Assembly: GCA_030425645.1 (NCBI GenBank)
Contig: JAUHZK010000007.1
Span: forward strand, 62,001 to 126,000
Reading direction: 5' to 3'
Source of the DNA: Gammaproteobacteria bacterium
GTDB lineage: Bacteria > Pseudomonadota > Gammaproteobacteria > JAPPPA01
DNA length: 64,000 nucleotides
Below the pieces are notes generated by a model, which did not search any database, had not been told where the DNA came from, and worked only from the letters and a program-made list of their open reading frames with translations. Each line of letters begins with the position of its first letter. Positions within the stretch are counted from its first letter, which is position 1. The position numbers and the translations under genes are program-made. Below, piece by piece: positions 37,820 to 57,555 of the stretch.

Positions 37820-37865
37820 AACACAGTTTTGTTACTTACATTCCAAATACAAAGTAAGACAAACG

Positions 37866-39975: not shown

Positions 39976-40011
39976 GCAGCACTGCAATCCATTACTTTAC
40001 GAGGAACCATT

Positions 40012-41349: not shown

Positions 41350-41360
41350 AGGACAGCAAA

Positions 41361-43071: not shown

Positions 43072-43078
43072 GCACATC

Positions 43079-43105
43079 GCCGGGCGCAATCGCAGCACGC
43101 CCGGC
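43079..43105. terminator. GC-rich hairpin between convergent genes
   Basis: GCCGGGCG (43079-43086) pairs perfectly with CGCCCGGC (43098-43105). It lies between the small basic protein gene and the convergent SDR gene. There is no T-run on either side, so termination is likely but not certain. Confidence 0.5.
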
Positions 43106-43111
43106 CGCTAT

Positions 43112-43801
43112 TTAGTAGGCCAACGCCGTACCATCCCAATGCAACAAACGGCCGCTATCGGCGGCTTTTAAAGCATTCGCCACTGCTAACAAACGCCGCG
43201 CGCTGCGTTCTGGGCTGAACAGCCTATCCTCGGGCAGTCGCTTGGTGAATGGCGCCGACAAAGCCGTATCCGTGGTACCCGGGTGCGCCGCGGCAACCGA
43301 CCAATTAGGTCGCGTACGCGACCATTCAATAGCAACGTTTTTTATACCCATATTCAAGGCCGCTTTCGACATGCGGTAGCTATACCAGCCACCAATACGG
43401 TTGTCGTTAATCGAGCCCACCATGGCCGACAAGGCCAACACCTTAAGCTTTATTTGCGGCGACATCGCTTGTTCCAATTGCTGCAACAAATACAGATGCG
43501 CGGTGCAGTTCAGGGCTAAGTTCTGCGCTAGATATTCAGCGTCAAATTCCCCCAAACGCTTCTCCGGTTCCATCTGCGAGTTATGCAACACGCCGCTGCA
43601 GCTAATAACCGTGTCGATATTTCTTACTGACAACCAATCGCCGACCGATTGCGGCTCTTGCAACAGGCTAGCGTGCAGCGTTTCCACACCGGCAATTTCT
43701 CGCTGTGAGCTAATGGCATATACCTGATGGCCTTCGCTTCTGGCCTCATTCACAAGCGCCGAACCAATGCCGCCGGCGGCACCTACTACTAATAATTTCA
43801 T
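43112..43801 (-). CDS. Short-chain dehydrogenase of the photolyase cluster
   Basis: A 229-residue SDR with the cofactor motif G-A-A-G-G-I-G at 8-14, the C-S-G-V-L-H in place of the N-N-A-G motif, S-A-M-V-G-S-I and the catalytic Y-R-M-S-K. SDRs of this C-factor-like kind commonly accompany photolyase. A good AGGA box precedes the ATG at 43801, 9 bp after the DUF2256 gene; the two are an operon. The substrate is unknown. Confidence 0.88.
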   Translation of the reverse strand: MKLLVVGAAGGIGSALVNEARSEGHQVYAISSQREIAGVETLHASLLQEPQSVGDWLSVRNIDTVISCSGVLHNSQMEPEKRLGEFDAEYLAQNLALNCTAHLYLLQQLEQAMSPQIKLKVLALSAMVGSINDNRIGGWYSYRMSKAALNMGIKNVAIEWSRTRPNWSVAAAHPGTTDTALSAPFTKRLPEDRLFSPERSARRLLAVANALKAADSGRLLHWDGTALAY

Positions 43802-43810
43802 CGTTTTCCT

Positions 43811-43957
43811 CTAAGGCTGACAACTGGGCGCGGCTGAGCGCCGCCCACGGCAACGCTTTGAACAATATTTAACGGCCTCCCAGTCACGACGCCATTTCTT
43901 GCGCCAGCTAAAAGACCGCTTGCAAATCACACAGGTTTTTATTGGCTTCCGTTTCAT
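43811..43957 (-). CDS. DUF2256 small zinc-ribbon-like protein
   Basis: A 48-residue gene, easily missed because of its size, starting at ATG 43957 and ending at a TAG at 43811. Residues 8-12 are T-C-V-I-C, followed by [10 protein letters not shown] and Y-C-S-K-R-C-R, giving the C-x2-C...C-x3-C zinc-binding pattern and the R-P-F-x-W-R-K-K-W core of DUF2256. The family is typically found next to photolyase or cryptochrome genes. A GGGG box lies 8 bases upstream, and the SDR gene follows after 9 bp. Confidence 0.9.
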
Positions 43958-43983
43958 TTACAGCCCCAAAAACCCCAAAAATA

Positions 43984-44060
43984 TATACATATTCATTTCA
44001 AAACGTCAGTTTGTTGAAATAAATTGCCACAAAAACTGGACTAAGTCTAATTTTTGTATA
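43984..44060. promoter_or_regulatory. Candidate MerR half-sites between the DUF2256 and fadE promoters
   Basis: TATACAT at 43984-43990 and TTGTATA (reverse complement of TATACAA) at 44054-44060 lie in the 148-bp AT-rich divergent promoter region. They match words in the other cluster promoters, but AT-rich DNA yields such words by chance. Confidence 0.4.
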
Positions 44061-44105
44061 AAAATCTCGGTAAATTAATTGCAAATACTTACACAAGGAT
44101 TAGAC

Positions 44106-46475
44106 ATGAATAGCGTTTTAGTCGTAACCATCGTTTCAATCGTGATTTTGTTGAGCGCGATCTGCTTAATACGCCCATTGCGCCAACAACTAATCACCCG
44201 CCCAATATTCAACGGCTTCAAAGCAGTGCTACCACCCATGAGCAGCACTGAGCGCGAAGCCCTAGAAGCTGGCGACGTCTGGTGGGAAGCCGAGCTCTTT
44301 GCCGGCAAGCCCAATTGGAAGCGCTTCAGCCAGCTAACCCCACCAACACTGACGGAAGAAGAGCAGCGCTTTTTAGACCACGAAACCGAGCAGCTTTGCG
44401 CCATGCTCGACGAGTGGGAGATCACTCATGACCGTAACGATCTGCCCCCTACCGTGTGGCAATTTATTCGCGACAAGGGTTTCTTTTCACTGATCATCCC
44501 TAAGGAATTCGGCGGCAAAGCTTTTTCGCCTTACGCACAAAGCTGCATCGTTACCAAAATTGCTACGCAAAGCATTAACGCCGCCGTTACCGTCATGGTG
44601 CCTAACTCATTAGGGCCCGGCGAACTGCTGATGCATTACGGCACCCCAGAACAGCAACAACGCTGGCTGCCAGGCCTAGCTGCTGGTAAAGAGATTCCTT
44701 GTTTTGGCCTCACCAGCCCCGAAGCCGGCTCGGATGCGGGCGCCATTCCCGACATTGGCACCGTATGCATGGGCAGCCACGGCGGCAAACGCCAACTCGG
44801 TATTCGCCTAAACTTTGCTAAGCGTTGGATTACCCTAGCGCCAGTCGCCACAGTAGTTGGTTTAGCCTTTAAGTTGCGCGACCCAGATGGGCTGCTGGGC
44901 GACAGCGACAAGGTGGATTACGACATCACCTGCGCTTTAATTCCTGCCAACCATCGCGGCGTAGAAATTGGCCGCCGACATTATCCGGGCGCGTTTATGA
45001 ACGGCCCCATTAACGGCAAAGACGTATTTATCCCTATTGATTGGATTATTGGCGGCCGCGACAACGCTGGCAAAGGCTGGCGCATGCTCATGGAATGCCT
45101 GTCGGTTGGCCGCGGTATTTCGCTGCCTGCGCTGGGTGCAGCGGCTTCTAAAGTCAGCTACCGCACCACCGGTGCTTACAGCCGCATTCGTCGCCAGTTC
45201 AATACTTCTATTGGCCAGTTTGAAGGCGTCAAAGAAGCCACCGCGCGTATCGCTGGCCTCAGCTACACGCTGGAGGCCATGCGCCAGATGGTCTGCAGCG
45301 GTTTAGAAGAATGTTCACCGCCAGTGGTCTCAGCCATTGCCAAATACCATATGACTGAAATGATGCGCACCGTGATGAATGACGCCATGGATGTTCACGG
45401 CGGACGCGCCATTCAACTTGGGCCACGCAATTATTTGGCCGCGGCTTACCAAGCCATTCCGATTGCCATTACTGTTGAAGGCGCCAACATTCTCACCCGT
45501 TCATTGATGATCTTTGGCCAGGGCGCGGTGCGCTGCCACCCTTATGTATTCGATGAAATGGAAGCAGCTCGCAACCCTGACAGCAAACAGGGCTTGCGGG
45601 ACTTTGACCGCGTATTTTGGCGCCATATCGGCTATAGCATTGCTAGAACCGTGCGCGCCTTCGGCCTAGGAATCAGCGCTGCGCGCTTTAGCAAAACCGC
45701 TGATTTCTCTAATCAGCAAGCATTTAAGCGACACTATCAACGCATTAACCAGCTGAGCGCAAGTCTCGCCTTTACCGCCGATTTAGCCATGGCTTTACTA
45801 GGCGGCGACCTTAAACGCCGAGAGTTACTCTCTGCGCGCCTAGGCGATATGCTTTCACAGCTCTTTATCGCGACTGCGGTATTGCGCCACCATGCGCACG
45901 CAAAAGCACAAGGCGAGACTAACGACCAACATGCCGAATGGGCCGTTAACCATGCCTTGTTCCAGGCACAAGAAGCCTTTATCGCTTTCTGTGACAACTT
46001 TCCTAAGGCCGCTATTGGCCGCATTATCAAACGCATTGGTCTGCCACTTGGACGTTTTGCCAAAGCCCCTAGCGACGAGCTCACCAATCGAGTCGGCAAC
46101 AGCATTATGCAAGCCACCCCGGTACGCGACGAAGTTAGCTTCCCGGCCTATATCACCGAGAACCGCAATGACGCCAGAGGCCGTGTAGAACATACCTTTC
46201 GCAACCTATTGGCGACAGAGCCGACTTATCTGCGCGTATTGGCAGCAGTGCGTCGCGGCGATTTAAACGGCGAAAACTTTGACATACAACTCAAACAAGC
46301 CCTCGCCGCCAACCTCATTAGCGCCGATGAGGCTTTGCAACTGTCGCACTACGACCGCGTCCGTCAGGACTGCCTGCTAACCGATGCCTTTGACCCCGCC
46401 GCTATCAGCGGCAGGCGGCAAATACCGTCTAGCGCCCAAACCAAACTCAGACAGCGCGCTGAACAAGCCGCCTAA
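44106..46475 (+). CDS. fadE: Acyl-CoA dehydrogenase FadE
   Basis: The start is ATG 44106, with AAGGA ending 6 bases upstream; this gives 789 residues. A single membrane segment covers about 3-22. The FadE core follows: V-L-P-P-M-S-S-T-E-R-E-A, W-W-E-A-E-L-F-A-G-K-P-N-W, P-N-S-L-G-P-G-E-L-L, F-G-L-T-S-P-E-A-G-S-D-A-G-A and I-T-V-E-G-A-N-I-L-T-R-S. It is near full-length E. coli FadE and distinct from small soluble acyl-CoA dehydrogenases. It carries out the first step of beta-oxidation at the inner membrane. Being in the photolyase cluster, it may recycle oxidised or remodelled acyl chains (inference). Confidence 0.94.
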   Translation: MNSVLVVTIVSIVILLSAICLIRPLRQQLITRPIFNGFKAVLPPMSSTEREALEAGDVWWEAELFAGKPNWKRFSQLTPPTLTEEEQRFLDHETEQLCAMLDEWEITHDRNDLPPTVWQFIRDKGFFSLIIPKEFGGKAFSPYAQSCIVTKIATQSINAAVTVMVPNSLGPGELLMHYGTPEQQQRWLPGLAAGKEIPCFGLTSPEAGSDAGAIPDIGTVCMGSHGGKRQLGIRLNFAKRWITLAPVATVVGLAFKLRDPDGLLGDSDKVDYDITCALIPANHRGVEIGRRHYPGAFMNGPINGKDVFIPIDWIIGGRDNAGKGWRMLMECLSVGRGISLPALGAAASKVSYRTTGAYSRIRRQFNTSIGQFEGVKEATARIAGLSYTLEAMRQMVCSGLEECSPPVVSAIAKYHMTEMMRTVMNDAMDVHGGRAIQLGPRNYLAAAYQAIPIAITVEGANILTRSLMIFGQGAVRCHPYVFDEMEAARNPDSKQGLRDFDRVFWRHIGYSIARTVRAFGLGISAARFSKTADFSNQQAFKRHYQRINQLSASLAFTADLAMALLGGDLKRRELLSARLGDMLSQLFIATAVLRHHAHAKAQGETNDQHAEWAVNHALFQAQEAFIAFCDNFPKAAIGRIIKRIGLPLGRFAKAPSDELTNRVGNSIMQATPVRDEVSFPAYITENRNDARGRVEHTFRNLLATEPTYLRVLAAVRRGDLNGENFDIQLKQALAANLISADEALQLSHYDRVRQDCLLTDAFDPAAISGRRQIPSSAQTKLRQRAEQAA

Positions 46476-46495
46476 ACCCAACACTTTTTAATCAA

Positions 46496-46519
46496 CCCGC
46501 TCCGCGCAAGCGGCGCGGG
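46496..46519 (+). other. Intercistronic hairpin with a GCAA tetraloop
   Basis: CCCGC-T-CCGC pairs with GCGG-C-GCGGG around a GCAA loop, right between the fadE stop and the next gene. It lacks a T-run. GNRA tetraloops stabilise hairpins, so this could be a processing or attenuation element, or protect the fadE message. Confidence 0.45.
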
Positions 46520-46534
46520 GCATTGAGAAATAGC

Positions 46535-47587
46535 ATGAAACATCTTTTAAAACCGCCACAACAGAAAACACGCAACACAGTCCGCCTAGCTGAGACTGTT
46601 GTTGTCGCGGGCGGCTCTGGCTACCTAGGCCGCGCCTTAGTGCGCGAGTTATTAGCCCACGGCCATAGCGTGATGATCGCCACCCGCAACCCAAGCAAAA
46701 CACTGCGACAGCCTGGCTTTCCCGTGCACCCGCGATTAGCCGTATTTGACCTACACAAGCAACCACCACATCAACCCACCGTGGTTATCAACCTATGTGG
46801 CGAAAACATTGCCGCCAAACGCTGGAGCAGCAAACGCAAACAAGTACTGATAGATTCACGCATCGACCCTACGCTACTACTGGTTAATCGCTGCAACCGC
46901 GACTGGCCACAAGTCCATAGCTTTATTAACGCCTCCGCTATCGGTTTGTATGGCGACCATGGCGATGCCTGGATTGATGAAGACAGTCGCTGCGGCAACG
47001 ACTTTGCCGCCCAACTATGTCAGCAATGGGAATTATGCTTACAACCGCTGCGGCCGGACATACGCCGCGTCCATAGCCGCCTAGGTGTGGTAATAGGCGA
47101 AGCCCGATCAGGCTCCTTTCTCGGCCGCCTGCTGCCAGCCTATCGTTTTTGCATGGGCGCCCAACTTGGCAATGGTCAGCACTGGTTCAGCTGGATACAC
47201 CGACAAGACGCCGCCGCCGCGCTTTGTTTTTTAATGGAAAACTATCGCTGCCAAGGCAGCTACAACCTCTGCGCGCCGCAAGCAGTACGCCACCAACGGC
47301 TACATTACCTGATAGCCAAGGTACTCAAGCGCCCCAGTAAACTGCGCTTACCCGCGGCCGCCATTAGGCTACTGTTTGGAGAAATGGCGCAACTACTACT
47401 TTGCTCACAACGCGTCACCCCTAGACGCTTAGCCAAAGCTGGCTTTGAGTTTCAATACCCCAATCTACATGGCGCGCTGTATCACGCCATCACCGGCCGG
47501 CAGCCCATTAACGGGCTGCCGTTGCCCAAGCTTGCGCGCTTGGCAACTCAGCACAGACCTCATCATCCCGCCGCTGGAAGGCGATAG
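46535..47587 (+). CDS. TIGR01777-family NAD-dependent epimerase
   Basis: A protein of about 350 residues from ATG 46535 (TTG 46523 also possible). The Rossmann start is V-V-V-A-G-G-S-G-Y-L-G-R-A-L-V, followed by N-L-C-G-E-N-I-A-A-K-R-W and F-I-N-A-S-A-I-G-L-Y-G-D-H-G, diagnostic of TIGR01777 (SDR39U1-like) proteins. The last 80 bases overlap the convergent DUF3833 gene. The family is frequent in photolyase clusters; the reaction is unknown. Confidence 0.85.
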   Translation: MKHLLKPPQQKTRNTVRLAETVVVAGGSGYLGRALVRELLAHGHSVMIATRNPSKTLRQPGFPVHPRLAVFDLHKQPPHQPTVVINLCGENIAAKRWSSKRKQVLIDSRIDPTLLLVNRCNRDWPQVHSFINASAIGLYGDHGDAWIDEDSRCGNDFAAQLCQQWELCLQPLRPDIRRVHSRLGVVIGEARSGSFLGRLLPAYRFCMGAQLGNGQHWFSWIHRQDAAAALCFLMENYRCQGSYNLCAPQAVRHQRLHYLIAKVLKRPSKLRLPAAAIRLLFGEMAQLLLCSQRVTPRRLAKAGFEFQYPNLHGALYHAITGRQPINGLPLPKLARLATQHRPHHPAAGRR

Positions 47588-48110
47588 ATACTTTGCCAAC
47601 CGTTATTCCAAACTTTTTTAGCAAACTGTAATTAAGCAACACGCCATCTGGCTGCAATCGCAGCCAGTCGTCTACGGTAAGCACAATATCTGAGCCTCCC
47701 CGCGGCACGCGTAGGCGGTATTTCCAGCGCAAGGTATTACCAATCACCTCGCCGCTGGCTTCGCCCTCCACATCAGCGGCAGTACCGCGGTATTGGTTTG
47801 GACTGGTTTCCTGAATACGCCATACCCGCGTCGAGCGGCTAGCATCGTCGTAGACAAACTGCTCATCCAGAGTGAGTACGCCTCGGTCATCAATGGAGCC
47901 GTCGATATGCACTTTAAATCGCGAAGCTGGCTCACCGCGCCAGTTATCGATCACGCCCCAACCCACCACGCAGCCATCAAAATAATTGCTTAGCTCAAAG
48001 GCCGGCAATGCGCCTTCAAAGCTGGCGTGGCGCGTACTAAAGCAAGCGCTTAGTGTCGTTGCGGCCAACGCGACCAAAGCAATACGACGAACAGGGAATA
48101 TTGAGAACAT
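47508..48110 (-). CDS. DUF3833 lipoprotein
   Basis: The start is ATG 48110 (200 residues), 4 bp after the previous stop, rather than an earlier in-frame codon inside the upstream gene. A lipoprotein signal ends in L-S-A-C. The mature part has the DUF3833 pattern: L-S-N-Y-F-D-G, G-W-G-V-I-D-N-W-R-G, and R-W-K-Y-R-L-R-V-P. About 20 residues extend past the usual end and overlap the convergent TIGR01777 gene. A lipocalin-like lipid-binding role is possible. It lies in one operon with the next two genes. Confidence 0.85.
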   Translation of the reverse strand: MFSIFPVRRIALVALAATTLSACFSTRHASFEGALPAFELSNYFDGCVVGWGVIDNWRGEPASRFKVHIDGSIDDRGVLTLDEQFVYDDASRSTRVWRIQETSPNQYRGTAADVEGEASGEVIGNTLRWKYRLRVPRGGSDIVLTVDDWLRLQPDGVLLNYSLLKKFGITVGKVSIAFQRRDDEVCAELPSAQAWATAAR

Positions 48111-48114
48111 GAGT

Positions 48115-48660
48115 TTATCCTTCACTAGCAAGCTGCTGCTGATACGCCAGCCAGTGGGCATACAACAAACTGCGTTGTTTAAGACTAATAGGCTGCTCGC
48201 CCATCCATACTGACAGCAGCATCTTTGCCACTTGCGGGTTATTTAAGCGGTGCAGTGGTTGCCGATTAAGGCTCAGCAGTAGCTCAGCCCCAGTCCACTG
48301 CAACTGGTAGTGGTCGCCCTTTTCCACATCTTCAAATGCGTTCACAAAGGCTTCGATCGGGGCTCTCTGACCTAATAGATCCTTGCCGTAGTTGGCCTCA
48401 ATGGTGTCCATAAATAAACCCGACAAGCGCTCGGCGGAAACTGCGATGCCGTAATCAATACGCAAACGTTTTGGATATGCGGGTGACAGCCAATCGTCGA
48501 CTTCAAGCTCGGCGGGCACTGCCAGCGAAGCGGTGGTTAGGGTTTTAAACAGAAAACGATATTTGGCGCTACCGACATCTACCCACTGGGCAGCCTGGGT
48601 TGGCAAACTGAGCAGCAAGAAAATGCAACAGCTTAGTAATGACGTTCTGAGCTTAGCCAT
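48115..48660 (-). CDS. Chalcone-isomerase-like exported protein
   Basis: The start is ATG 48660, with AAGG 9 bases upstream, overlapping the MFS gene end by 8 bases. This gives 181 residues with a signal peptide (about 1-23, ending T-Q-A). The bacterial chalcone isomerase fold is suggested by V-D-V-G-S-A-K-Y-R-F-L-F-K, L-R-I-D-Y-G-I-A-V-S-A-E-R-L, Y-Q-L-Q-W and the C-terminal L-L-S-V-W-M-G. Bacterial members are thought to bind fatty acids rather than flavonoids. It fits a lipid-handling operon. Confidence 0.8.
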   Translation of the reverse strand: MAKLRTSLLSCCIFLLLSLPTQAAQWVDVGSAKYRFLFKTLTTASLAVPAELEVDDWLSPAYPKRLRIDYGIAVSAERLSGLFMDTIEANYGKDLLGQRAPIEAFVNAFEDVEKGDHYQLQWTGAELLLSLNRQPLHRLNNPQVAKMLLSVWMGEQPISLKQRSLLYAHWLAYQQQLASEG

Positions 48661-49912
48661 GCGGAAGCACCTTAGTGTTTTCATCAGTAGAAACCGAGGA
48701 ACTAGATAAGGCCATTAACGGCCGCACCATGAGCGGCGAAAACATCAACAAGGCAACGATGGACTTAAGCGCCACCGGCACCCAAACATATACCGCCGTG
48801 ACAAGGCTAGAAGGCAATATCGCAGCGCCTTGAGCAACCGTTGGCGACGGCCCTAGGGCACCAAACAACGCGAATGCGACCACTACTGCCAACCCCAAAG
48901 CCAGCTTCTGCGCCATACCCCAAAAGCCAAAACTGGCGCCGACGTTTTCCGCGCCGGCCTGCAAACGCAGCGATACCCATCGGGTTTGCAAGGTCACTGG
49001 GGCAACACTATCAATACCGGCACAAAAGCCAGTAACCACACAGCAAAGCAAAAACCACAACACATCACCCTGGCCAAGCAAGGCCACTGGCGCAAAGGCC
49101 AAAATCGAGACCAGCACGGCGGTTCGCCACAGGCGCAGCAGGCCCAACTGAGGAGCAAAACGCTTGTAGATGAGAACCGCAGCAATAGCCGACAAGAAGT
49201 AGGCTATTAACAGCGCCGGCAACCACTGCTCTGCACCTAACACGTCGCGACAGAACACCAGCAAGACCACACCCGGGACAGCGTTAGCAGTCGAATTCAG
49301 CAACCATAACCACCATAGGCGCAGGCCAGCCTTGTCCTGCCATAGCACTACCAAATCCTGCTTAACCGAATTTCGCGAACTCGCAGCATTGACGCTTGGC
49401 TGCAACCACACCGAAACCGCCATCAACAGCAGCATCAACAGCAGCAACCACCAAGCAAAACCAAACAGCGCCGGCAATAACAAACCTAAGATGGTGCCAA
49501 CTAGCAGCAACGCCTCTCGACCAGCGTTCCAGCTCAACTGCTCTAGCGGCGCCCGCGTTGTTGGCGCCGCCAACCACGGTACGGCGAGCAATGTCCATCC
49601 GAAAAACAACAGTGCAATCGCCGCGGCAGCAACGAATGGGGTATAGGCCGAGAACAACAATGCCGCAGCCAACAACAGCACCAGCAGCCCCAGTTGCATA
49701 ACACGGTCACGGCGAGCGACCCGATCCACCCACACTCCGACCGGCAGGTCGGTGCAGACATCAATAAAACGCGCCAACAGAAACAACCATGCGACCTCGC
49801 CAAAACCAAAGCCGCGCTGCTCTACCAACCACGTGGGCACATATAGATAGAACGGCAGCCCAAGCGCCGCCAAAGGCAAAGCCAGCAAAGAATATCGGAT
49901 TATGTACAACAT
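48653..49912 (-). CDS. MFS transporter of the photolyase cluster
   Basis: I put the start at ATG 49912 (419 residues, beginning M-L-Y-I-I-R-Y-S-L-L-A-L-P), where the sequence starts to look like protein; the upstream open frame runs into promoter-like DNA. There are about 12 hydrophobic helices, and E-Q-R-G-F-G-F-G-E-V-A-W and A-R-F-I-D-V-C-T-D-L-P-V-G of the MFS_2 sugar-type carriers. Related carriers belong to the singlet-oxygen regulon of Rhodobacter. The ATG sits inside a 34-bp palindrome and lacks a Shine-Dalgarno, so transcription or translation may be controlled right at the start. The substrate is unknown. Confidence 0.85.
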   Translation of the reverse strand: MLYIIRYSLLALPLAALGLPFYLYVPTWLVEQRGFGFGEVAWLFLLARFIDVCTDLPVGVWVDRVARRDRVMQLGLLVLLLAAALLFSAYTPFVAAAAIALLFFGWTLLAVPWLAAPTTRAPLEQLSWNAGREALLLVGTILGLLLPALFGFAWWLLLLMLLLMAVSVWLQPSVNAASSRNSVKQDLVVLWQDKAGLRLWWLWLLNSTANAVPGVVLLVFCRDVLGAEQWLPALLIAYFLSAIAAVLIYKRFAPQLGLLRLWRTAVLVSILAFAPVALLGQGDVLWFLLCCVVTGFCAGIDSVAPVTLQTRWVSLRLQAGAENVGASFGFWGMAQKLALGLAVVVAFALFGALGPSPTVAQGAAILPSSLVTAVYVWVPVALKSIVALLMFSPLMVRPLMALSSSSVSTDENTKVLPHG

Positions 49913-49937
49913 ATTTTTAAATAATAATATGTTGTAC
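49904..49937. promoter_or_regulatory. 34-bp palindromic operator overlapping the MFS start codon
   Basis: Two perfect 12-bp arms, GTACAACATATT at 49904-49915 and AATATGTTGTAC at 49926-49937, are separated by 10 bp. The MFS start codon (49910-49912) lies in the left arm. The outer words are TGTACAA and TTGTAC, the same as in the merR promoter. A further TTGTATA occurs at 49943-49949. It is the strongest candidate site for the cluster's MerR protein. Confidence 0.65.
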
Positions 49938-49960
49938 TGTTTTTGTATATGTTTTATTAT
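49932..49960 (+). promoter_or_regulatory. Candidate promoter for the small RNA
   Basis: TTGTAC (49932-49937) and TATTAT (49955-49960) are separated by 17 bp, a good sigma-70 arrangement on the plus strand. The -35 word is the right end of the 34-bp palindrome, so binding there would shut off both directions. Confidence 0.5.
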
Positions 49961-49966
49961 CTTGTT

Positions 49967-50069
49967 TCGCGCAAGCGAGTCACTTCCCTCTAGTCTCCTC
50001 CAGGAAGTGAGGCCACGCCAGTGGTCAACAGCAAAACTTGAGGCCGCCATTTGGCGGCCTCTTTTTTTT
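49967..50069 (+). ncRNA. Candidate trans-acting small RNA, about 100 nt
   Basis: Both neighbouring protein signals point away from this stretch, yet it ends in a strong plus-strand terminator. The first hairpin is CACTTCC (49981-49987) with GGAAGTG (50003-50009), and its 15-nt loop holds CCTCC (49997-50001), the complement of a Shine-Dalgarno. A second short hairpin is at 50011-50026 and the terminator hairpin at 50040-50061. Such loops occur in stress-induced small RNAs of alphaproteobacteria that curb translation. There is no sensible reading frame. I infer induction together with the photolyase cluster. Confidence 0.55.
50040..50069 (+). terminator. Strong terminator of the candidate small RNA
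   Basis: A 9-bp perfect GC-rich stem (GAGGCCGCC, loop ATTT, GGCGGCCTC) is followed by eight T on the plus strand. Confidence 0.88.
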
Positions 50070-50140
50070 GCACAACCACATGCGTATACAACTTTGCAGC
50101 AAAGCCATCTAGCCGAAACAATCGAAACCAATATGCAGGC

Positions 50141-50172
50141 AAAAAAAAACCAGCCCGAGGGCTGGTTTTTTT
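50141..50172. terminator. Bidirectional terminator, originally that of tRNA-Lys
   Basis: The stem ACCAGCCC/GGGCTGGT (50049 offset: 50149-50156 with 50159-50166) has nine A before and seven T after it. On the minus strand it lies directly behind the truncated tRNA-Lys copy at 50177, so before insertion of the island it would have ended the tRNA-Lys transcript. It is now 7.4 kb from the complete tRNA. Confidence 0.8.
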
Positions 50173-50176: not shown

Positions 50177-50227
50177 ATGGTGGGTCGTGTAGGATTCGAA
50201 CCTACGACCAATTGGTTAAAAGCCAAC
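50177..50227 (-). repeat. Left attachment repeat (3' part of tRNA-Lys)
   Basis: These 51 bases are identical to 57556-57606, which is the 3' part of the tRNA-Lys gene (anticodon stem through CCA). Here the 5' part is missing, so this is not a working tRNA but the att site left by insertion. Confidence 0.95.
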
Positions 50228-50385
50228 AACGGTATTTTAAAAAAAATTATCTAATTCAATGGGATACGAAGTTTATACTATCCCTCCAACTTCAGAATGA
50301 CACAACTGTAAGCCTTTGTTTTTTATATCTTTGGCATATAGAGTGGGATAAGCTCTTATTACGTTTATTAGCTGACCAGCACTTC

Positions 50386-50667
50386 CTATCTATGGCTCGT
50401 ATCTTCTCGTATGGGAAATGTTGCTGAGTACTGTTTTGCTATCGCACCCATAGCAAGCGAAAGCTCAGGTGGAAGCATAAACCACATAGGATTTCCGAAA
50501 GCATTTGGGTAGCCAATATCTTCGTCACCATCTTCCCCATTCCACCGCATTGCCAGCTGAATATCTCCGTGCTCATACCGCCCCCACGCAACTGAAAAAC
50601 CATTCAAGTCATACAAGACTTCTACAACTTGAAAGTTTTTAGGATTTACACGACTTGGATTGACCAT
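50386..50667 (-). CDS. Hypothetical cargo protein, 93 residues
   Basis: A cytoplasmic, acidic protein, with V-E-V-L-Y-D-L-N-G-F-S-V-A-W-G-R-Y-E, then L-A-M-R-W-N-G-E and G-Y-P-N-A-F-G-N-P-M-W-F-M-L-P-P. The L-A-M-R-W-N and G-(N/K)-P-x-W-F motifs suggest a compact conserved fold, but I cannot name it. A GGAA-type box upstream supports it. It lies in the cargo region of the island, nearest the left repeat. The stretch 50228-50385 before it holds only possible integrase sites. Confidence 0.65.
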   Translation of the reverse strand: MVNPSRVNPKNFQVVEVLYDLNGFSVAWGRYEHGDIQLAMRWNGEDGDEDIGYPNAFGNPMWFMLPPELSLAMGAIAKQYSATFPIREDTSHR

Positions 50668-50781
50668 TTTCTTCCTTATTTATCCTTATTTTCAGCGCAA
50701 ATTAACAATCGCACCCCAGTAGATTGATAGCAAACTCAAAACGGGTTATCAAACCGCGAAAGGTCTTACCAATAACCATAG

Positions 50782-51834
50782 CTACCTGAATATCGCATCA
50801 TACTTACGCAAAGTCCTATCGTCCCGAATAAGCTCGTCAACAAAATCTTCATTGGAATAAATACCTGACAACATATCTCTTACACGAAGCGGCAAATCCA
50901 CAGCCTCCTCCGCGATGACAAACTGCAAATAAGCCTTGTTAGCTTCAAACCGTTCATTTGTCATATCAAAAATTACATAAGCCGAGAGTTTTTTAAGGTC
51001 TTCATAATTTTTAAGTGCCGTGTAACGCTTAACTTCCTCCTGATAATCCAACAGGCGTTTGATAGGTATGTATCCGCTTCCCTCATCAGCTAGGATCATG
51101 CGCTGACCATCGGGACGAGGAAACTCATTTACACACTCCATTAGCCTCTGTTGGATACCTTTGTAGGAAGTATCGGTATAAGGCTGATTCATTTTGTTTC
51201 GTGGTTCTATTGGCTCGTCAGCGTGCGTATCAAAAAAGTCAGGGGCGGAATATTGCAAGTAAATCTTGTTGGACAGCTCACTACGTCTATTGGAAGTGTT
51301 TTTAGCATATTCAAGAGTAATCTCATCTCCCCGTTCGACCTTCATTAATATCTCTTGAGCCAACTTGTTGCTCTCGCTCACAAAGGCTTTCAACTCGCTA
51401 AAGATATAATCACTTTCGGCGCTTACCTCGACCCAACCATTCTCAAACTTATCAGCTAATAATTGAGATTCGCATGCCCCAAATTTAATCAAGTGTTTGT
51501 TGAAGTGAATATCTTTCTTGAGTTTCCGCAGTTTAATTTTGTTGGCCTCATTTATTGCGGTTTGCTTCTTTACAAGCGCATCAACAAGCTCCGATACGCC
51601 ACTCATTTCACATTCGTACCTAACCTCAGCAAAGCCTTCACTTTCATTTAGAACGTCCCATTTAGTTGCGTCACAGCTTTGCCATGCATCGAACACCAAA
51701 CCAATAGGTTTGATTCCGAAGCTGCTAATGCTCTGTTCTTTTAGATCCGTGATCCAATCTTTTTTTCCGCAGCCTGATATACCAACAACCAATAGACAAC
51801 AAAGGAAAACCATCAATTTTTTAAGGTCAAACAT
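50782..51834 (-). CDS. Cargo lipoprotein of unknown function
   Basis: A 350-residue protein with a lipobox (G-I-S-G-C at 18-22) after a hydrophobic leader, followed by K-K-D. The mature part is rich in charged helices with coiled-coil-like parts (about 90-180). AT-rich codon use unlike the chromosomal neighbours suggests recent transfer. It could be a surface protein such as an exclusion or phage-blocking lipoprotein, as carried by some mobile elements, but nothing proves this. I do not recognise the family. Confidence 0.7.
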   Translation of the reverse strand: MFDLKKLMVFLCCLLVVGISGCGKKDWITDLKEQSISSFGIKPIGLVFDAWQSCDATKWDVLNESEGFAEVRYECEMSGVSELVDALVKKQTAINEANKIKLRKLKKDIHFNKHLIKFGACESQLLADKFENGWVEVSAESDYIFSELKAFVSESNKLAQEILMKVERGDEITLEYAKNTSNRRSELSNKIYLQYSAPDFFDTHADEPIEPRNKMNQPYTDTSYKGIQQRLMECVNEFPRPDGQRMILADEGSGYIPIKRLLDYQEEVKRYTALKNYEDLKKLSAYVIFDMTNERFEANKAYLQFVIAEEAVDLPLRVRDMLSGIYSNEDFVDELIRDDRTLRKYDAIFR

Positions 51835-52288
51835 CTAAGACACTCCCGCCAGTCAAGCCTAATAACAACTTCGTTAGATACAAACCAATCTATGGCCGCA
51901 TCTACATAATTAAAACTACCGCCCAATTGCAAGTAGCTAATTAGATTAAAATTTTATCCACAGTAACAAGCCTTTACTAAGTGTCAACCTATTTTGTAGT
52001 GTGCGAAGGCACTACGGCACGTGCTCTACTTACAACACGCTTTACCCACAAAAGCCCGCTACAGCCTACCATAGAATCGGCCCTCCTTTTGTATTGGATG
52101 CAAACAGATAAAACGTATCTAAACACCGGATGCAATCAAACCTGTTAACCGTATTAAAGGCCTTTTGCTTCTGCCGAAAAGGCTCCATAGCCATTTACTT
52201 GTCTTGTGGTAGCACGTTATTAGCAAAACTAATTGAGTCGTCACGGTGAGCTTCATATCCTGACCTTCTATGTAAGGAAAAAAAGGAA
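51835..52288. other. Gene-free AT-rich stretch, candidate replication origin of the island
   Basis: A consensus DnaA box (TTATCCACA, 51954-51962) is followed by inverted repeats (TAGTG...CACTA around 51997-52014), two GGATGCAA words (near 52097 and 52129) and the 25-bp operator at 52215. The RepL-like gene starts at 52289. This is the usual make-up of a plasmid origin, but iterons are weak, so the call is tentative. Confidence 0.4.
52215..52239. repeat. Island operator copy 1
   Basis: The first of three copies of a 25-bp sequence whose core TTAGYAAAACTAA is palindromic (TTAGT-AAA-ACTAA; this copy has C for the T). It lies 50 bp before the RepL-like gene. The other copies are at 54955 and 56077. 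Confidence 0.85.
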
Positions 52289-52726
52289 ATGAACCAATTT
52301 GATTTAATCGACAGAGAAACAGGCGAAGTCTTAGATGCAAAACACATTGTTGCGCCTAAGAAGATACCTTCAGCCTTCCACGAAGGCTTCAATATGATTG
52401 GCCTATTCGGCTGTGAATACCTGACTAAATTAGGTGCTGAAGGAAAACTCACGCTGACCGATTTCGTAGTCTTGTGTAAGTTACTCACGGATAACAACTA
52501 CGAGAACAGCCAAGGCTTAAACATAGCTAAGCTGGCAAGAGACATTGGGAAAGACCGATCTCAAGTCAGCAAAGCAATCAAGCATTTGCAAAGCCACGAT
52601 TTATTCATTCGACAAAAAGATAAAGACGGCCTGCCTGAGTTGCTCTTCAACCCCAACTACTTTTGGCGTGGCAGGCCAGCGCTCCATAAGCAAGCTATTC
52701 GCCACTACAAAAAAGACAAGTCTTAA
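52289..52726 (+). CDS. Winged-helix RepL-like replication or regulatory protein
   Basis: A 145-residue protein with a strong Shine-Dalgarno (AAGGAA). Residues 55-110 form a winged helix: L-T-D-F-V-V-L-C-K-L-L, then L-N-I-A-K-L-A-R-D-I-G-K-D-R-S-Q-V-S-K-A-I-K-H-L. The end, F-N-P-N-Y-F-W-R-G, matches RepL-type plasmid initiators. It may start replication at the stretch before it or bind the 25-bp operators. Its stop overlaps that of the convergent relaxase by 4 bases. Confidence 0.7.
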   Translation: MNQFDLIDRETGEVLDAKHIVAPKKIPSAFHEGFNMIGLFGCEYLTKLGAEGKLTLTDFVVLCKLLTDNNYENSQGLNIAKLARDIGKDRSQVSKAIKHLQSHDLFIRQKDKDGLPELLFNPNYFWRGRPALHKQAIRHYKKDKS

Positions 52727-54471
52727 AGCCCTAAGTCACGGCTATTATCTTGCTCTCTACGCTTCAACTCACGATACAGCTTGTTACTGATTGTCATTTT
52801 CGGTTTGGGTTGCGGTGCTTCTTTATCAGCAACCATTTTTTTCACCAAACCTAATGCCTTTTCACAGCAAAGAGCCGACAGGTGCAATATCTTGGTCAGG
52901 AAGTTGCCGTAATGCCTAAAGCCGGACAAGTGGTAACCCTGTTGTATTTCTCCGCCTATGTGATTGGCAAAATTTTCCGCAAAATCATTCAGCGATTCTT
53001 GGCTTAGTTCTAAGCCATAAAGCGGAACACTAAACACCACCTCAAAATCATTTGTGGCTAGTTGTTGAGTCAGACTAGGCATATAGCCTTGCGCTTCCAG
53101 TTTGTCGATTTGGCGTTGCGACAAATCACCAATGCAAAACTGAAAATAGCCCTCGCGGCGCGGGGCAATCTGCAAGACATAACCCTTGCTCGACAACTGC
53201 ATTAAGCCAGCCATTTTGTCGCTGAGTTGCTCCTCTGAATAAACATGACGCTTAGGTGCTTGGTAGTTGTTTGGGTTTGAGATTATTAGCTCGTATTTAT
53301 CAGCCTGAATAGCGTCGAACTGCTTTTGCAGTTCCTTCATTTTGTATTGATAACTCATGCTGCTTACAACGCCTCCTTGATTGGAGAGAAGCTCATCAAG
53401 AGCACGCCAGCGACGATACCCAGCACGAAGGCTGAGGTTATGGTCCACAGCGTGCTTCTCAAAGTCGCCAGCTCGTGCTTCTGCATTATCTGAAGCTGGA
53501 GCTTCCTGTTGCGGTCCAGGGTTTTGCTGAACTTCTGGTATTGCTTGGTTAGACTTTGGCTCGCCTGAGTGCTCTGCTTTGTAACCCGTGTCATTTGCTC
53601 GTTGATGTTCAACAAGGTTTGTTGCAGAACTTTCTGAGTTTCTGCTTCTGTTCTGACTAAGTGCTTTTTTGATTTGGTTTGTGCAGCGGATAAGTTCTCC
53701 GCTTTCTGTGGCTTGTTCATAGCTAACTCCTTTTTCTAATAATTGTTTTAAGCTGTAGCCTTTCCCTAGTTGGGAACCCTTGAACGTAATGCCTTCCAGT
53801 TGAAAGGCCATTCCGTTGAGTCGTCCGGTGCTTGCCACATTAGGTATGGCAATCACTCCTGACGCTTTTAATCGCTCTATAAAAGCGAAAACTGATTGAG
53901 GCTCATTCAATGCCTCGTCTATGAGCTGTTGTAGCTGTTGGCGGATTGGGGCGCGCCCTTCACGCAACGCTTTTTCCATCTCGTTTTTAGTTGCTTGTTT
54001 CTTGTCGCGTTGGGCTTCTTCAAACGTCTTTGTAATCGTCAAACCGAACTGCTTTTCTAAATCGCTAGCGACGCGCATGGCAGAAAAGTATTCCCAGCGC
54101 CCATTCCATAACTGCCCGTTTAAACCGATACGGCTGGCAACGATGTGAATATGTTGTCCGTTGGTGTCGCTATGCGATACGGCAACCCATTGGTGAGCGT
54201 CGCTAAACCCCATGCGCTCCACATAGGCATTGGCCACCTCGGAAAACTTCTCTGCTGGGATGGTTTCGTTATCGGGCAGTCTTAGCCACGAGTGGCTGAC
54301 TGGCTTAATGATTGAAGGGCGTTTATTTCGGCTAATGCCGAACTCTGCCGATAACTGTAGCGGGTTAGTGCCTGACATATTCCCAGCGACGATTTCAGCA
54401 CCCTTGCTGTCGCCGAATACATACGACAGCGCACCGTAAAAACCGTTGCCTCTTATTGCTCCGGCTTTCAT
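52723..54471 (-). CDS. mobA: Relaxase (MobA/VirD2-type mobilization protein)
   Basis: A 582-residue protein with an N-terminal relaxase domain. Motif III, H-S-D-T-N-G-Q-H-I-H at 100-109 (H-x-D-x4-H-x-H), binds the metal; P-V-S-H-S-W at 57-62 is motif II; a candidate catalytic Tyr is in L-S-Y-V-F-G near 15-20. It cuts one strand at oriT and pilots it to a recipient. The C-terminal half is less conserved and carries the nested MobB-like frame (53364-53720). It overlaps mobC by 4 bases (ATGA). Confidence 0.9.
   Translation of the reverse strand: MKAGAIRGNGFYGALSYVFGDSKGAEIVAGNMSGTNPLQLSAEFGISRNKRPSIIKPVSHSWLRLPDNETIPAEKFSEVANAYVERMGFSDAHQWVAVSHSDTNGQHIHIVASRIGLNGQLWNGRWEYFSAMRVASDLEKQFGLTITKTFEEAQRDKKQATKNEMEKALREGRAPIRQQLQQLIDEALNEPQSVFAFIERLKASGVIAIPNVASTGRLNGMAFQLEGITFKGSQLGKGYSLKQLLEKGVSYEQATESGELIRCTNQIKKALSQNRSRNSESSATNLVEHQRANDTGYKAEHSGEPKSNQAIPEVQQNPGPQQEAPASDNAEARAGDFEKHAVDHNLSLRAGYRRWRALDELLSNQGGVVSSMSYQYKMKELQKQFDAIQADKYELIISNPNNYQAPKRHVYSEEQLSDKMAGLMQLSSKGYVLQIAPRREGYFQFCIGDLSQRQIDKLEAQGYMPSLTQQLATNDFEVVFSVPLYGLELSQESLNDFAENFANHIGGEIQQGYHLSGFRHYGNFLTKILHLSALCCEKALGLVKKMVADKEAPQPKPKMTISNKLYRELKRREQDNSRDLGL
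53364..53720 (-). CDS. MobB-like protein nested in the relaxase gene
   Basis: A 118-residue open frame entirely inside mobA, in another frame of the same strand. The protein is not what chance would give: long Gln/Lys/Thr-rich coiled coil (about 20-85) followed by a clean membrane helix (about 92-112, S-A-F-V-L-G-I-V-A-G-V-L-L). ColE1-type plasmids carry mobB and mobD inside mobA in this manner, and MobB has the same coiled coil plus membrane helix plan. MobB stabilises the relaxosome and links it to the coupling protein. Confidence 0.7.
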   Translation of the reverse strand: MNKPQKAENLSAAQTKSKKHLVRTEAETQKVLQQTLLNINEQMTRVTKQSTQASQSLTKQYQKFSKTLDRNRKLQLQIMQKHELATLRSTLWTITSAFVLGIVAGVLLMSFSPIKEAL

Positions 54472-54806
54472 TGCGCTTTCACCCCGATTAAAGCGTTGCG
54501 GGTATCGGCTAAGACGTTTTGCGTCCGCTCAACATCTTCGATTACGCCAGCAATGTTGGCGCGGCGCGCCAACTGATTAAGCAAGCCTGACAGCTTATTG
54601 AGCTGGGACCATGCTTTGAAATTAACAGGTGGGATATGTTGCACTTGGGCGGTAAACGCCAAGGTGCGCAAGTATTCGCCACGGGCAGCATGCCCGCGTA
54701 AATCGTCGAGTTGATTTAGTTCTAAATCCGTTAGTCGGCACCCTATGCGGTGCGACCTTTTAAGGTCTGCGGGCAGTCTTTTTCTGCCTCTTCTTCTGTG
54801 CTCCAT
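54468..54806 (-). CDS. mobC: MobC-like relaxosome accessory protein
   Basis: The start is ATG 54806, with an AGAAG box upstream; this gives 112 residues. A basic start (H-R-R-R-G-R-K-R-L-P) leads to R-I-G-C-R-L-T-D-L-E-L-N-Q-L-D-D-L, the ribbon-helix-helix start of MobC proteins, and L-N-K-L-S-G-L-L-N-Q-L-A-R-R-A-N is the family core. It binds at oriT and helps the relaxase. It overlaps mobA by the ATGA stop-start. Confidence 0.85.
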   Translation of the reverse strand: MEHRRRGRKRLPADLKRSHRIGCRLTDLELNQLDDLRGHAARGEYLRTLAFTAQVQHIPPVNFKAWSQLNKLSGLLNQLARRANIAGVIEDVERTQNVLADTRNALIGVKAQ

Positions 54807-54858
54807 GTTTGTTGTTCTTCTAATGTCTTGCCGTCGTAAGCAAAGCGCCACAAGGGCA

Positions 54859-54907
54859 CCCGTTAACGGGCAAGCAAGGATATTTGGCCAGCCAAATTAC
54901 TCCTTGC
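54859..54907. other. Candidate origin of transfer (oriT)
   Basis: The region upstream of mobC holds a 12-bp palindrome (CCCGTTAACGGG, 54859-54870) and next to it a compound inverted repeat: GCAAGGA/TCCTTGC (54874-54880/54901-54907) enclosing ATTTGGC/GCCAAAT (54882-54888/54891-54897). oriT sites usually lie here with such repeats. The nick site is not recognised. Confidence 0.5.
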
Positions 54908-54954
54908 TACTTCTCACAGTAAACTATTTTACGATCTATATCAATAACTTATAT

Positions 54955-54979
54955 CGTTATTAGTAAAACTAATTGAGTC
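54955..54979. repeat. Island operator copy 2
   Basis: This copy of the 25-bp palindromic sequence lies between the divergent mobC and 55031 genes, 52 bp before the latter. Confidence 0.85.
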
Positions 54980-55030
54980 AAGCAGGAGAGATCCATAAGC
55001 TGAAATAGTCAATTCAATAAGGAGTTATAT

Positions 55031-55420
55031 ATGACAAGAAGAAAATTAGTAAGTAGCCACAGCCCGCGCGAATACCTCACCAAGTGCAATAAAGCCATCA
55101 ACATATATTGGGATTTCTACACCGTGCTAGACAAACCAGAAAAAAGAGGTTTTGTAGTCACAAATTTCACTTTAAACAATAGGTTCTTATGCTTTAAACC
55201 CGAGTTCCCTACAAGGGGCCGTTTTAACACCACGGCATTCCCCGATGAATTGAGAAGGGAGCTCCAAGTGTTTTTTTATACGAAATGTGATTTCTCTAAG
55301 GAAAATTTTGAAAAATTGGGGTTCATAATTGAGCTAGCAATTATGCTGATTAAGCACAGTAAGCACTTCGAGAATCATTGCATGAGCTTTTATGAAATGG
55401 CTGTAAGAACCGGGTCATAA
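55031..55420 (+). CDS. Hypothetical cargo protein, 129 residues
   Basis: A soluble protein with a strong AGGAG box. It is basic at the start (M-T-R-R-K-L-V-S-S), with F-T-L-N-N-R-F-L-C-F-K-P and F-I-I-E-L-A-I-M-L-I-K-H in the body. AT-rich codons indicate transfer. No family recognised. It is divergent from the mobilization genes, with an operator copy between, so it may be regulated together with them. Confidence 0.65.
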   Translation: MTRRKLVSSHSPREYLTKCNKAINIYWDFYTVLDKPEKRGFVVTNFTLNNRFLCFKPEFPTRGRFNTTAFPDELRRELQVFFYTKCDFSKENFEKLGFIIELAIMLIKHSKHFENHCMSFYEMAVRTGS

Positions 55421-55482
55421 CCCTTTTAATTTTAACTTTGGTCACAGCCAGAACAGTATATGACGCAGTCACCCATAGGCCT

Positions 55483-56019
55483 TTATAAAACACTCTCTAT
55501 CTCTGAGCTTATGTGTCTGGCCTGTGTGACTTGCTTCCGCCTCATTTCGTCAGAGGCTTTCAAAATATCCCATAGCTCGGTGCGCTTTGTTCCACCGTCG
55601 CTATCATTCTCTGCCTTGCCAAGGCCCGCTATTTGGCTGTGTAGACGAGCAACTTGTCTTTCTAAACGCTCGTTGTCAGAAGTCAAAAATTGAAGCCTTG
55701 CAGTCATAGCATTAAGGCGGTTGGCTTCTTGTGTTTGTTTCATTTGCAACCATAGTGCCTTGGCTTGCTCGGCGTTTGCGTCGGTGCTGGCCTTTAGCTC
55801 TCGTCCCTGTAGCAAGATAGCAATAAGCCCAAGCGTAATTGCCATTGTGGTGAAAATTCCGTCAGTGATCGCTAAGGCATCACCCAGCCCCGCTAAAGTT
55901 GTGGGTAGCTCCATACCCTCCAAAAACGTTGGCAGCGGAGCTAATCCCGTCGCCACCAAAAGTACTGCTCCCCAAGTCGAAAGAACTAGCGCTACTAGCA
56001 GTGCAACATTCGCATTCAT
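55483..56019 (-). CDS. Cargo membrane protein with coiled coil
   Basis: The start is ATG 56019 (AGG box upstream), since the longer frame runs through the operator repeat; this gives 178 residues. Two membrane helices (about 3-22 and 50-69) are followed by a soluble coiled coil (about 75-130, Q-A-K-A-L-W-L-Q-M-K-Q-T-Q-E-A). The tail has D-S-D-G-G-T-K-R-T-E. No family is recognised. A two-helix anchor plus cytoplasmic coiled coil could sense or block something at the membrane. Divergent from the integrase operon. Confidence 0.65.
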   Translation of the reverse strand: MNANVALLVALVLSTWGAVLLVATGLAPLPTFLEGMELPTTLAGLGDALAITDGIFTTMAITLGLIAILLQGRELKASTDANAEQAKALWLQMKQTQEANRLNAMTARLQFLTSDNERLERQVARLHSQIAGLGKAENDSDGGTKRTELWDILKASDEMRRKQVTQARHISSEIESVL

Positions 56020-56076
56020 ATTGATTACCTGTGCTTTTTGACAATTATTTTTAACCAACGCATAAGGCCTAACCCA

Positions 56077-56101
56077 CGTTATTAGTAAAACTAATTGAGT
56101 C
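56077..56101. repeat. Island operator copy 3
   Basis: This copy, identical to copy 2, lies between the divergent membrane protein gene and the integrase operon. Confidence 0.85.
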
Positions 56102-56147
56102 ACTATTGCACGCTCAATAGTATGGGCGCCTCTAATAAGGAAGAGGC

Positions 56148-56246
56148 ATGAACCAATACGAAAAAACTATATATAACAGGCGAGTAGAGTGGCGCCAAGC
56201 GCACGTAAAAAATACAGACTCAAGTGAAACCGGAGGTGACTCATGA
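56148..56246 (+). CDS. 32-residue leader protein of the integrase operon
   Basis: A short frame with a good GGAAGAGG box (ATG 56148, TGA 56244-56246). It overlaps the next start by ATGA, the same coupling that joins the two genes after it. The product, M-N-Q-Y-E-K-T-I-Y-N-R-R-V-E-W-R-Q-A..., is basic and may be a small protein or just a coupling leader. Confidence 0.55.
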   Translation: MNQYEKTIYNRRVEWRQAHVKNTDSSETGGDS

Positions 56247-56467
56247 AACCTTCTGATCAACTTGGATCAACATATTCACGATTTTTATCGAAGCAGGAGC
56301 TAATAGATTTAACAGGCAAGAGGGCTGCTTCAGCCCAACGCCGTGCGTTAGATTTTATGAAACTGCCCTACATAAGGAGACCCGACGGCACACCAGTTGT
56401 CACGTCTGGAATCTTTGAAAGCAGAGGCAATAGGAAAAACTCACCTAACTGGGAGAGCTTGTCATGA
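56243..56467 (+). CDS. DUF4224 protein (excisionase-like)
   Basis: A 74-residue protein with the DUF4224 motif F-L-S-K-Q-E-L-I-D-L-T-G-K-R and A-Q-R-R-A-L-D-F-M. The family is found before phage and island integrases and is probably a directionality factor or DNA binding partner. ATGA overlaps on both sides join it to the 32-residue frame and to the integrase. Confidence 0.85.
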   Translation: MKPSDQLGSTYSRFLSKQELIDLTGKRAASAQRRALDFMKLPYIRRPDGTPVVTSGIFESRGNRKNSPNWESLS

Positions 56468-57489
56468 AATCATTTGCGCAAGGAGTCCGCTGGAAGTGCG
56501 GCGCATATCGTTATCGCGTACCCCGCTGGGTAGAGCAAAGCACCGTGGATAGCGTATTCAACGGGAAAAGAGAATATAAATTAGGTAAAACCCAATATGA
56601 AGCGGCGGTCGAGTATGCCCGCGTTATGCGTGAGCTTGAGGGACCAATTAGTACCATAGTAACCATGGGCGACTTAATGACCCGTTATAGGTCGGAAGTC
56701 GTCCCTCTGAAGCACCCCAAGACTCAAACAAGCAATATCATTAGCTTAAACAGGCTTTACAGTGTTTTTGCCAATATTCAACCAATTAACTTTGAGACCA
56801 CTTTTGTCTTCCAATACCGAGACAAGCTAAAGGACACACGAACTAGCGCCAACAGAGACTTAGAAGTTTTAAGCCATCTTTTTAGCAAAGCGATTGAGTG
56901 GGGGGTTATAAAAAACGAAGCACACCCAATGAGGGGATTGAACTATAAATATAGCAATCCCCCACGAGACAGGTACGTGAGCGACACAGAAGTCGAAGAA
57001 GCCCTTAAGGTGGCTTCTCCATTCCTATACGCCTATATCCAGCTCAAGCTCTCTCTGGGGTTGCGCAAAGGCGACATGCTACGCATTAAGCTCTCTGATT
57101 TGACTCCCGAGGGCATACAAGCGACCAATACTAAAACAGGCAAAAAAACTTTATATACGCTGACTCCAGAGAGAAAAACGGCATGGGACTTATGCCTTAA
57201 AGCTCGACCAAGGAGTCGCACTCACTTCAATCTTTTGTTCTGCACAAGAGACGGCAAACCCTATATTGACGAGCAAGGCACAACCTCTGGTTTCGATAGT
57301 GTATGGCAACGCTTTATGAAAAAAGCTTTGGCAGAAACCAATCTAGAAGAAAGATTTACGGAACACGATCTAAGGGCAAAAGTTGCTAGCGACAGCAAAG
57401 ACAGCGAACAAGCGCGCAAGCGTATGGGCCACACCAGCTCTGCCGTAACAGAACGCGTATATAGGAGAAAAGCTGAGAGAGCAGACTAA
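56464..57489 (+). CDS. int: Tyrosine recombinase/integrase
   Basis: A 341-residue phage-type integrase with the full catalytic set: R201 in G-L-R-K-G-D, H301-x-x-R304 in E-H-D-L-R, H323 in M-G-H-T-S-S and the nucleophile Y333 in R-V-Y-R-R. The N-terminal arm-binding and core-binding parts cover about 1-165. It lies 68 bp from the repeat in tRNA-Lys, the normal layout for an integrase that uses a tRNA site. It should insert and excise the element. Confidence 0.95.
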   Translation: MKSFAQGVRWKCGAYRYRVPRWVEQSTVDSVFNGKREYKLGKTQYEAAVEYARVMRELEGPISTIVTMGDLMTRYRSEVVPLKHPKTQTSNIISLNRLYSVFANIQPINFETTFVFQYRDKLKDTRTSANRDLEVLSHLFSKAIEWGVIKNEAHPMRGLNYKYSNPPRDRYVSDTEVEEALKVASPFLYAYIQLKLSLGLRKGDMLRIKLSDLTPEGIQATNTKTGKKTLYTLTPERKTAWDLCLKARPRSRTHFNLLFCTRDGKPYIDEQGTTSGFDSVWQRFMKKALAETNLEERFTEHDLRAKVASDSKDSEQARKRMGHTSSAVTERVYRRKAERAD

Positions 57490-57491
57490 CT

Positions 57492-57526
57492 CCGTGGGAT
57501 AAACCACGGTTTGTGGGATAAGCTCT
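57492..57526. promoter_or_regulatory. Candidate integrase arm-type sites, right end
   Basis: GTGGGATA occurs at 57495-57502 and 57513-57520; 14 bases starting at 57513 are repeated exactly at 50343-50356 near the left end. Repeats near both ends fit integrase arm sites. The hairpin CCGTGG/CCACGG (57492-57509) overlaps them. The rest of the stretch to queC holds the tRNA only. Confidence 0.45.
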
Positions 57527-57555
57527 CCGGCCCGAAGGCCGGAAACCCTTATAAA

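Follow-up and report, generated by a model that had tools for sequence, protein, structure and literature searches.

The window (the whole stretch of DNA that was analysed, 64,000 nucleotides long) contains a light cluster of genes, a mobilizable island and, between the two, a candidate small RNA. The light cluster is similar to the P. mendocina pmlR1 region, in which genes near pmlR1 are light-induced (PMC9758184). The features relevant to the candidate RNA are as follows.

34147-49912: light cluster, encoding an SDR, a regulator, two FAD oxidoreductases, DUF1365, a CFA synthase-like protein, photolyase, a further SDR, FadE-like, TIGR01777, DUF3833 and chalcone isomerase-like proteins, and an MFS transporter
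35617-35634, minus strand: operator-like direct repeat TTGTAATGGAATTGTATA, within the promoter immediately ahead of the regulator gene
35651-36601, plus strand: MerR/LitR-CarH-type regulator of the light cluster (Pfam MerR_1)
48653-49912, minus strand: divergent MFS transporter gene, starting at 49912 and transcribed away from the RNA
49904-49937: inverted repeat GTACAACATATTTTTA / TAATAATATGTTGTAC between the divergent MFS gene and the RNA
49932-49949, plus strand: operator-like direct repeat TTGTACTGTTTTTGTATA, 11-bp period, spanning the RNA -35 and part of the spacer
49932-49960, plus strand: predicted RNA promoter, with -35 TTGTAC at 49932-49937, a 17-nt spacer and -10 TATTAT at 49955-49960
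49964-50069, plus strand: candidate small RNA, ~100 nt, three hairpins and an intrinsic terminator, 5' end at about 49964-49969
49966-49979, plus strand: hairpin 1 (by folding), 4-nt loop
49980-50010, plus strand: hairpin 2 (by folding), 8-bp stem
49988-50002, plus strand: 15-nt loop of hairpin 2 (by folding), CTCTAGTCTCCTCCA (in RNA letters CUCUAGUCUCCUCCA), with CCTCC at 49997-50001
50011-50026, plus strand: hairpin 3 (by folding), 4-nt loop
50027-50039, plus strand: linker AACAGCAAAACTT
50040-50069, plus strand: intrinsic terminator (by terminator scan), stem 50040-50061, eight T at 50062-50069
50178-57632: mobilizable island in tRNA-Lys(ttt)
50178-50227: 50-nt copy of the tRNA-Lys 3' end, marking the left end of the island
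52723-54471: island MobA/VirD2-type relaxase
54468-54851: island NikA-like protein
56464-57489: island integrase

Folding of the candidate RNA gave a minimum free energy (MFE) of -45.9 kcal/mol, whereas shuffled sequences averaged -27.9 kcal/mol (z -5.9) and none of the 200 folded as well; with the terminator removed the fold still had a z of -3.3, with 3 of 500 shuffles as good. The main elements named in a preliminary description of this DNA were confirmed, namely three consecutive hairpins, a CCTCC loop (within the 15-nt loop of hairpin 2), a GC-rich terminator with eight T (a 9-bp stem with GC in 8 of 9 pairs) and ~100 nt devoid of a plausible protein, the candidate RNA holding no closed ORF of more than 6 codons; likewise, no gene reads into the terminator from the left, as the MFS gene points away. 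There may be weak internal pairing in the loop of hairpin 2: the bases C49998 and T49999 are ~40% unpaired, their neighbours >95%. On the plus strand of the 64 kb, CCTCC occurs 27 times (~0.4 per kb) and CTCCTCC three times, and by simple arithmetic from these window counts the chance of CCTCC in any given 15-nt loop is ~0.5%. The linker is single-stranded throughout in the MFE structure and, read as sequence, its triplets AAC-AGC-AAA form an A-R-N series resembling the Hfq distal-face motif. The unit has a stable fold, a terminator of its own, no ORF and a promoter that is read from the sequence only, as befits an independent small RNA.

Since the tRNA-Lys 3' copy is the left end of the island, the RNA lies outside the island. 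The sequence suggests that in the pre-island order a convergent tRNA-Lys came next after the RNA, close by. A role of the RNA as leader of a downstream gene is unlikely. A near-perfect bidirectional terminator, AAAAAAAAACCAGCCCGAGGGCTGGTTTTTTT, is found at about 50140-50172; it is probably the terminator of the tRNA-Lys, severed from its gene by the island.

The RNA promoter and the operator of the light regulator

The RNA promoter matches the consensus at 3 of 6 positions in the -35 element and 5 of 6 in the -10 element (8 of 12 in total). Both elements of the sigma-70-like promoter with 17-bp spacer that had been described are present, but the -35 is weak and the promoter is absent from the list given by our promoter scan, and we regard it as plausible rather than strong. 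The predicted promoter of the divergent MFS gene (-35 at 49949-49944, -10 at 49926-49921) overlaps it. The MFS ATG falls in the inverted repeat, ~9 nt past the predicted -10, and the MFS mRNA may therefore be leaderless or nearly so.

The direct repeats at 49932-49949 and, in the opposite orientation, at 35634-35617 share TTGTANTGNNNTTGTATA and an 11-bp period. When the whole 2.75-Mb genome was searched with TTGTANTNNNNTTGTATA, allowing up to one mismatch, exactly two sites were found, in the regulator promoter and the RNA promoter, both with zero mismatches. The motif was read from one of its own two sites, and with the same tolerance of one mismatch a reversed control motif matched 3 times and the true motif twice, so that the bare count is not unusual and only the exactness and location of the matches speak for it. 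Over the RNA -35 and spacer the sequence reads TTGTAC-TGTTT-TTGTATA, in which the second box fits the CarH repeat and the first is a pseudo-repeat; the LitR spacing TGTACA-N12-TGTACA is missing at the RNA promoter.

The regulator itself has MlrA and CarH as its best NCBIfam matches, both below the cut-off, and 3whp and CarH 5c8d as its best matches in the PDB. Its HTH part alone fits known models, the C-terminal two thirds having no Pfam domain; as 19 full-length relatives (30-42% identity) occur in other gammaproteobacterial families, the presumed light-sensing part is one that Pfam does not describe. In 300 kb of sequence around these 19 orthologues, exact TTGTA-N6-TTGTA occurs four times, in all four cases where a MerR/LitR-type regulator gene begins (L112, L117, L123 and L126), whereas other spacings of the TTGTA pair give ~1 exact chance match each. 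CarH binds 11-bp direct repeats and its operator can include the -35 (PMC9304148), and the boxes of Pseudomonas LitR are TGTACA-like, one of them overlapping the -35 (PMC9758184). An operator-like site of the LitR/CarH type, that is, an 11-bp direct repeat or TGTACA-type operator over the -35, is seen at the RNA promoter, the sole such site besides the regulator promoter. Because of the exact sites, the repeat positions at the orthologues and the 11-bp repeats over the -35 known for CarH, the inference that the cluster's MerR/LitR-type regulator has an operator in the RNA promoter is well supported. The earlier proposal that the RNA is made from the palindromic operator of the light cluster accordingly survives in altered form: the direct repeat is common to the RNA and regulator promoters, but the palindrome at 49904-49937 is not repeated at other light-cluster promoters. 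The common operator, together with the orphan terminator and the strong fold, makes an independent non-coding small RNA of the light regulon a predicted unit that is well supported in silico.

Relatives of the RNA and comparison with known systems

The candidate RNA matched no Rfam family at the gathering threshold, and BLASTN against 93 relatives (94 genomes in all) gave no second copy. A covariance model built from the single sequence and run on 369 genomes detected, in the 368 other gammaproteobacterial genomes, terminator look-alikes only, the next best at 36 bits. The exact loop had no second copy in ~85,000 genomes, and plasmids held no copy of the RNA. Around the 19 regulators, terminators with CCTCC upstream were found at the window locus only. 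Since BLASTN, the covariance model and the exact loop all failed to return a second copy, the RNA is lineage-restricted, and with no homologue there is no covariation. We treat 49964-50069 as a candidate for a real, new, lineage-restricted small RNA gene. A search of genome contigs with the MFS protein returned nothing, and distant MFS relatives lie mostly within CFA operons and hence have no upstream RNA. The sole relative of the same genus compared (G001, 88% complete) lacks the RNA and has no match to the MFS protein or the regulator; an integrase of the same kind is present at its tRNA-Lys, where the contig breaks off inside the integrated element. Two weak foreign BLASTN matches were rejected as chance, one (L003) lying inside the start of a coding gene and the other (L002) being AT-rich.

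The best sub-threshold Rfam scores (bits against gathering threshold) were 20.1/50 for RF02278, 22.5/52 for Hrs13 (RF02631) and 19.9/111 for SorY (RF02651). All three have a GC terminator like that of the window RNA and the aligned parts are mostly terminator; RF02278, a toxic small RNA of Betaproteobacteria, also has GUCUCC in common with it. Among the alphaproteobacterial Rfam small RNA models, only suhB/mmgR and BjrC1505 gave matches, far below gathering.

The preliminary description had also referred to alphaproteobacterial small RNAs with CCUCC-type loops, induced in singlet oxygen and other stress. As in alpha-r14, NfeR1 and CcsR, which carry the CCUCCUCCC motif, the window RNA is short, consists of hairpins and has CCUCC in an unpaired loop, but the likeness ends at the motif. 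In the known RNAs an ultraconserved CCUCCUCCC is present in each of three hairpins, whereas the window RNA has CTCCTCC in one loop and hairpins 1 and 3 are without it; CcsR is made from the ccaF1 3' UTR under alternative sigma factors, in contrast to the window RNA with its own putative promoter in a LitR-type operator; and the known RNAs are alphaproteobacterial, whereas the window RNA, with no Rfam match, comes from a different bacterial class. The CcsR RNAs form part of the response to photo-oxidative stress (PMC8307010, PMC10746234).

What the known LitR/CarH light regulons (P. putida PplR1, P. mendocina PmlR1/2, myxobacterial CarH) share with the window cluster is the grouping of a MerR-type regulator with photolyase, SDR, an FAD oxidoreductase and a CFA-like synthase in a single cluster, as well as TTGTA/TGTACA boxes over the -35. 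The window operator has the 11-bp repeat of CarH and not TGTACA-N12-TGTACA. A further difference is that one promoter of the operator pair appears to drive an RNA at the window locus, whereas the P. mendocina paper (PMC9758184) mentions no small RNA.

Putative mode of action of the candidate RNA

The explanation that we favour, at a probability of roughly 0.55, is that the locus encodes a ~100-nt RNA under LitR/CarH-type control, which is released by light and acts in trans on a few targets via the loop of hairpin 2. Transcription of this non-coding RNA would begin from a sigma-70-type promoter within the LitR/CarH-type operator and stop at the RNA's terminator. Without light, the MerR/LitR-type repressor of the cluster would occupy the 11-bp direct repeat that spans the -35 and spacer, and would silence the RNA promoter together with the divergent MFS promoter that overlaps it; on illumination, the repressor would be released and the RNA made along with the photolyase cluster. 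The RNA would most likely act in trans, probably with Hfq, which is encoded in the genome, and the exposed C-rich loop of hairpin 2 would pair with a few target messages. The RNA unit, the common operator and the presence of Hfq give this explanation its footing in silico; we infer the light control, the use of Hfq and the pairing mechanism, of which the pairing is the weakest step.

The preliminary description had the loop repressing many messages as an anti-Shine-Dalgarno element and proposed target prediction at ribosome-binding sites. Run on the 49 start regions of the window, this prediction gave pairing at background level: 10 of the 49 pair with the loop at -9 kcal/mol or better, compared to 17% of random sites, and shuffled loops reach the same mean pairing energy, 158 of 300 having one as low. 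Of all the start regions in the window, that of hrpA pairs most strongly (-16.1 kcal/mol). In the whole genome, the complement of the extended loop is found at the RNA itself and at one other site with one mismatch. Given the background-level pairing and the single mismatched extra site, the sequence data do not support a general block of ribosome-binding sites; a few specific targets may exist.

Background-level pairing would suit a real small RNA that works by another route, as a sponge, as a protein-binding RNA or by pairing via the AACAGCAAAACUU linker, with the CCUCC loop incidental; the unpaired linker with its A-R-N triplets is consistent with such a role, but there is no positive evidence of a partner and a long loop on an 8-bp stem resembles a display structure, and we consider this explanation unlikely. 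We are more sceptical still of a global anti-Shine-Dalgarno RNA whose CCUCC loop masks the ribosome-binding sites of many messages at the onset of light stress. The motif does lie in a loop and is rare in the window, and alpha-r14 and NfeR1 of alphaproteobacteria act in this way with CCUCCUCCC (PMC10746234), but the motif here is shorter than CCUCCUCCC and confined to one loop, loop pairing with the start regions does not exceed that seen for random sites or for shuffled loops, and no second genomic site has full complementarity to the extended loop. The RNA could also be a functionless by-product: the divergent MFS promoter would give rise to a short transcript, abortive or antisense, and the terminator would merely shield the convergent tRNA-Lys from it. 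This would fit the overlapping promoters, the close tRNA-Lys of the pre-island order (3' copy at 50178-50227) and the lack of conservation in the genomes searched, but is very improbable, as a likely bidirectional terminator at 50146-50172 already serves the tRNA side and as hairpins upstream of the RNA terminator beat shuffles and are needless in plain spacer DNA.

Photoregulation by LitR/CarH is known mainly as control of protein genes, and singlet-oxygen small RNAs are known in Rhodobacter. If the favoured explanation, a light-released RNA acting in trans, is true, a small RNA made from a repressor operator would give non-phototrophic bacteria a fast change of translation at the onset of light, as with the Rhodobacter RNAs.

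A short RNA beside the LitR-type regulator in family f40

In a gammaproteobacterial family with small genomes of about 1 Mb (f40), the divergent intergenic region of a regulator relative (L126) ends in an orphan terminator, which delimits a short RNA at about 10655-10737 on the plus strand (genome G286; also at L128-L138). The region is conserved in 11 of 12 family genomes, in most cases up to the terminator and no further. The conserved RNA measures 65-80 nt; its 3' part, AUCCCCUGGAGCA...UGCUCC...ACUUGUAGCCGG....CCGGCUACUUUUUU, is nearly invariant and the flanks vary. The f40 RNA belongs to no Rfam family, and its pairs are invariant, so there is no covariation. Like the window RNA, it has its own terminator and LitR-type TTGTA boxes, is divergent from a light-regulon gene and is C-rich, with a 5' seed AUCCCC. 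There is, however, no convincing sequence homology between the two: the f40 covariance model scores the window RNA at 21.9 bits (ACUUG and terminator in common), which is in the range of plain terminators, unrelated ones reaching 29.6 bits.

The presence of an unrelated, conserved short RNA beside the f40 LitR-type regulator suggests that LitR-linked small RNAs may recur across lineages. We tentatively propose, with somewhat more doubt than confidence, that LitR/CarH-type light regulons of non-phototrophic Gammaproteobacteria carry a post-transcriptional arm. This arm would be a short RNA that is bounded by a terminator, exposes a C-rich seed and is transcribed from the operator of the repressor itself, beside photolyase and regulator genes; it would have arisen, or diverged past recognition, in two families or more, namely the window lineage and f40 at least. 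That a LitR-type regulon should have a short terminated RNA on its operator in two unrelated lineages would be the most interesting outcome of this work, and the conserved f40 RNA makes the idea testable by comparison, beyond one genome. A cis role of the f40 RNA for the downstream 2Fe-2S ferredoxin gene is also conceivable; this gene, the regulator and the photolyase hold their positions in 11 f40 genomes.
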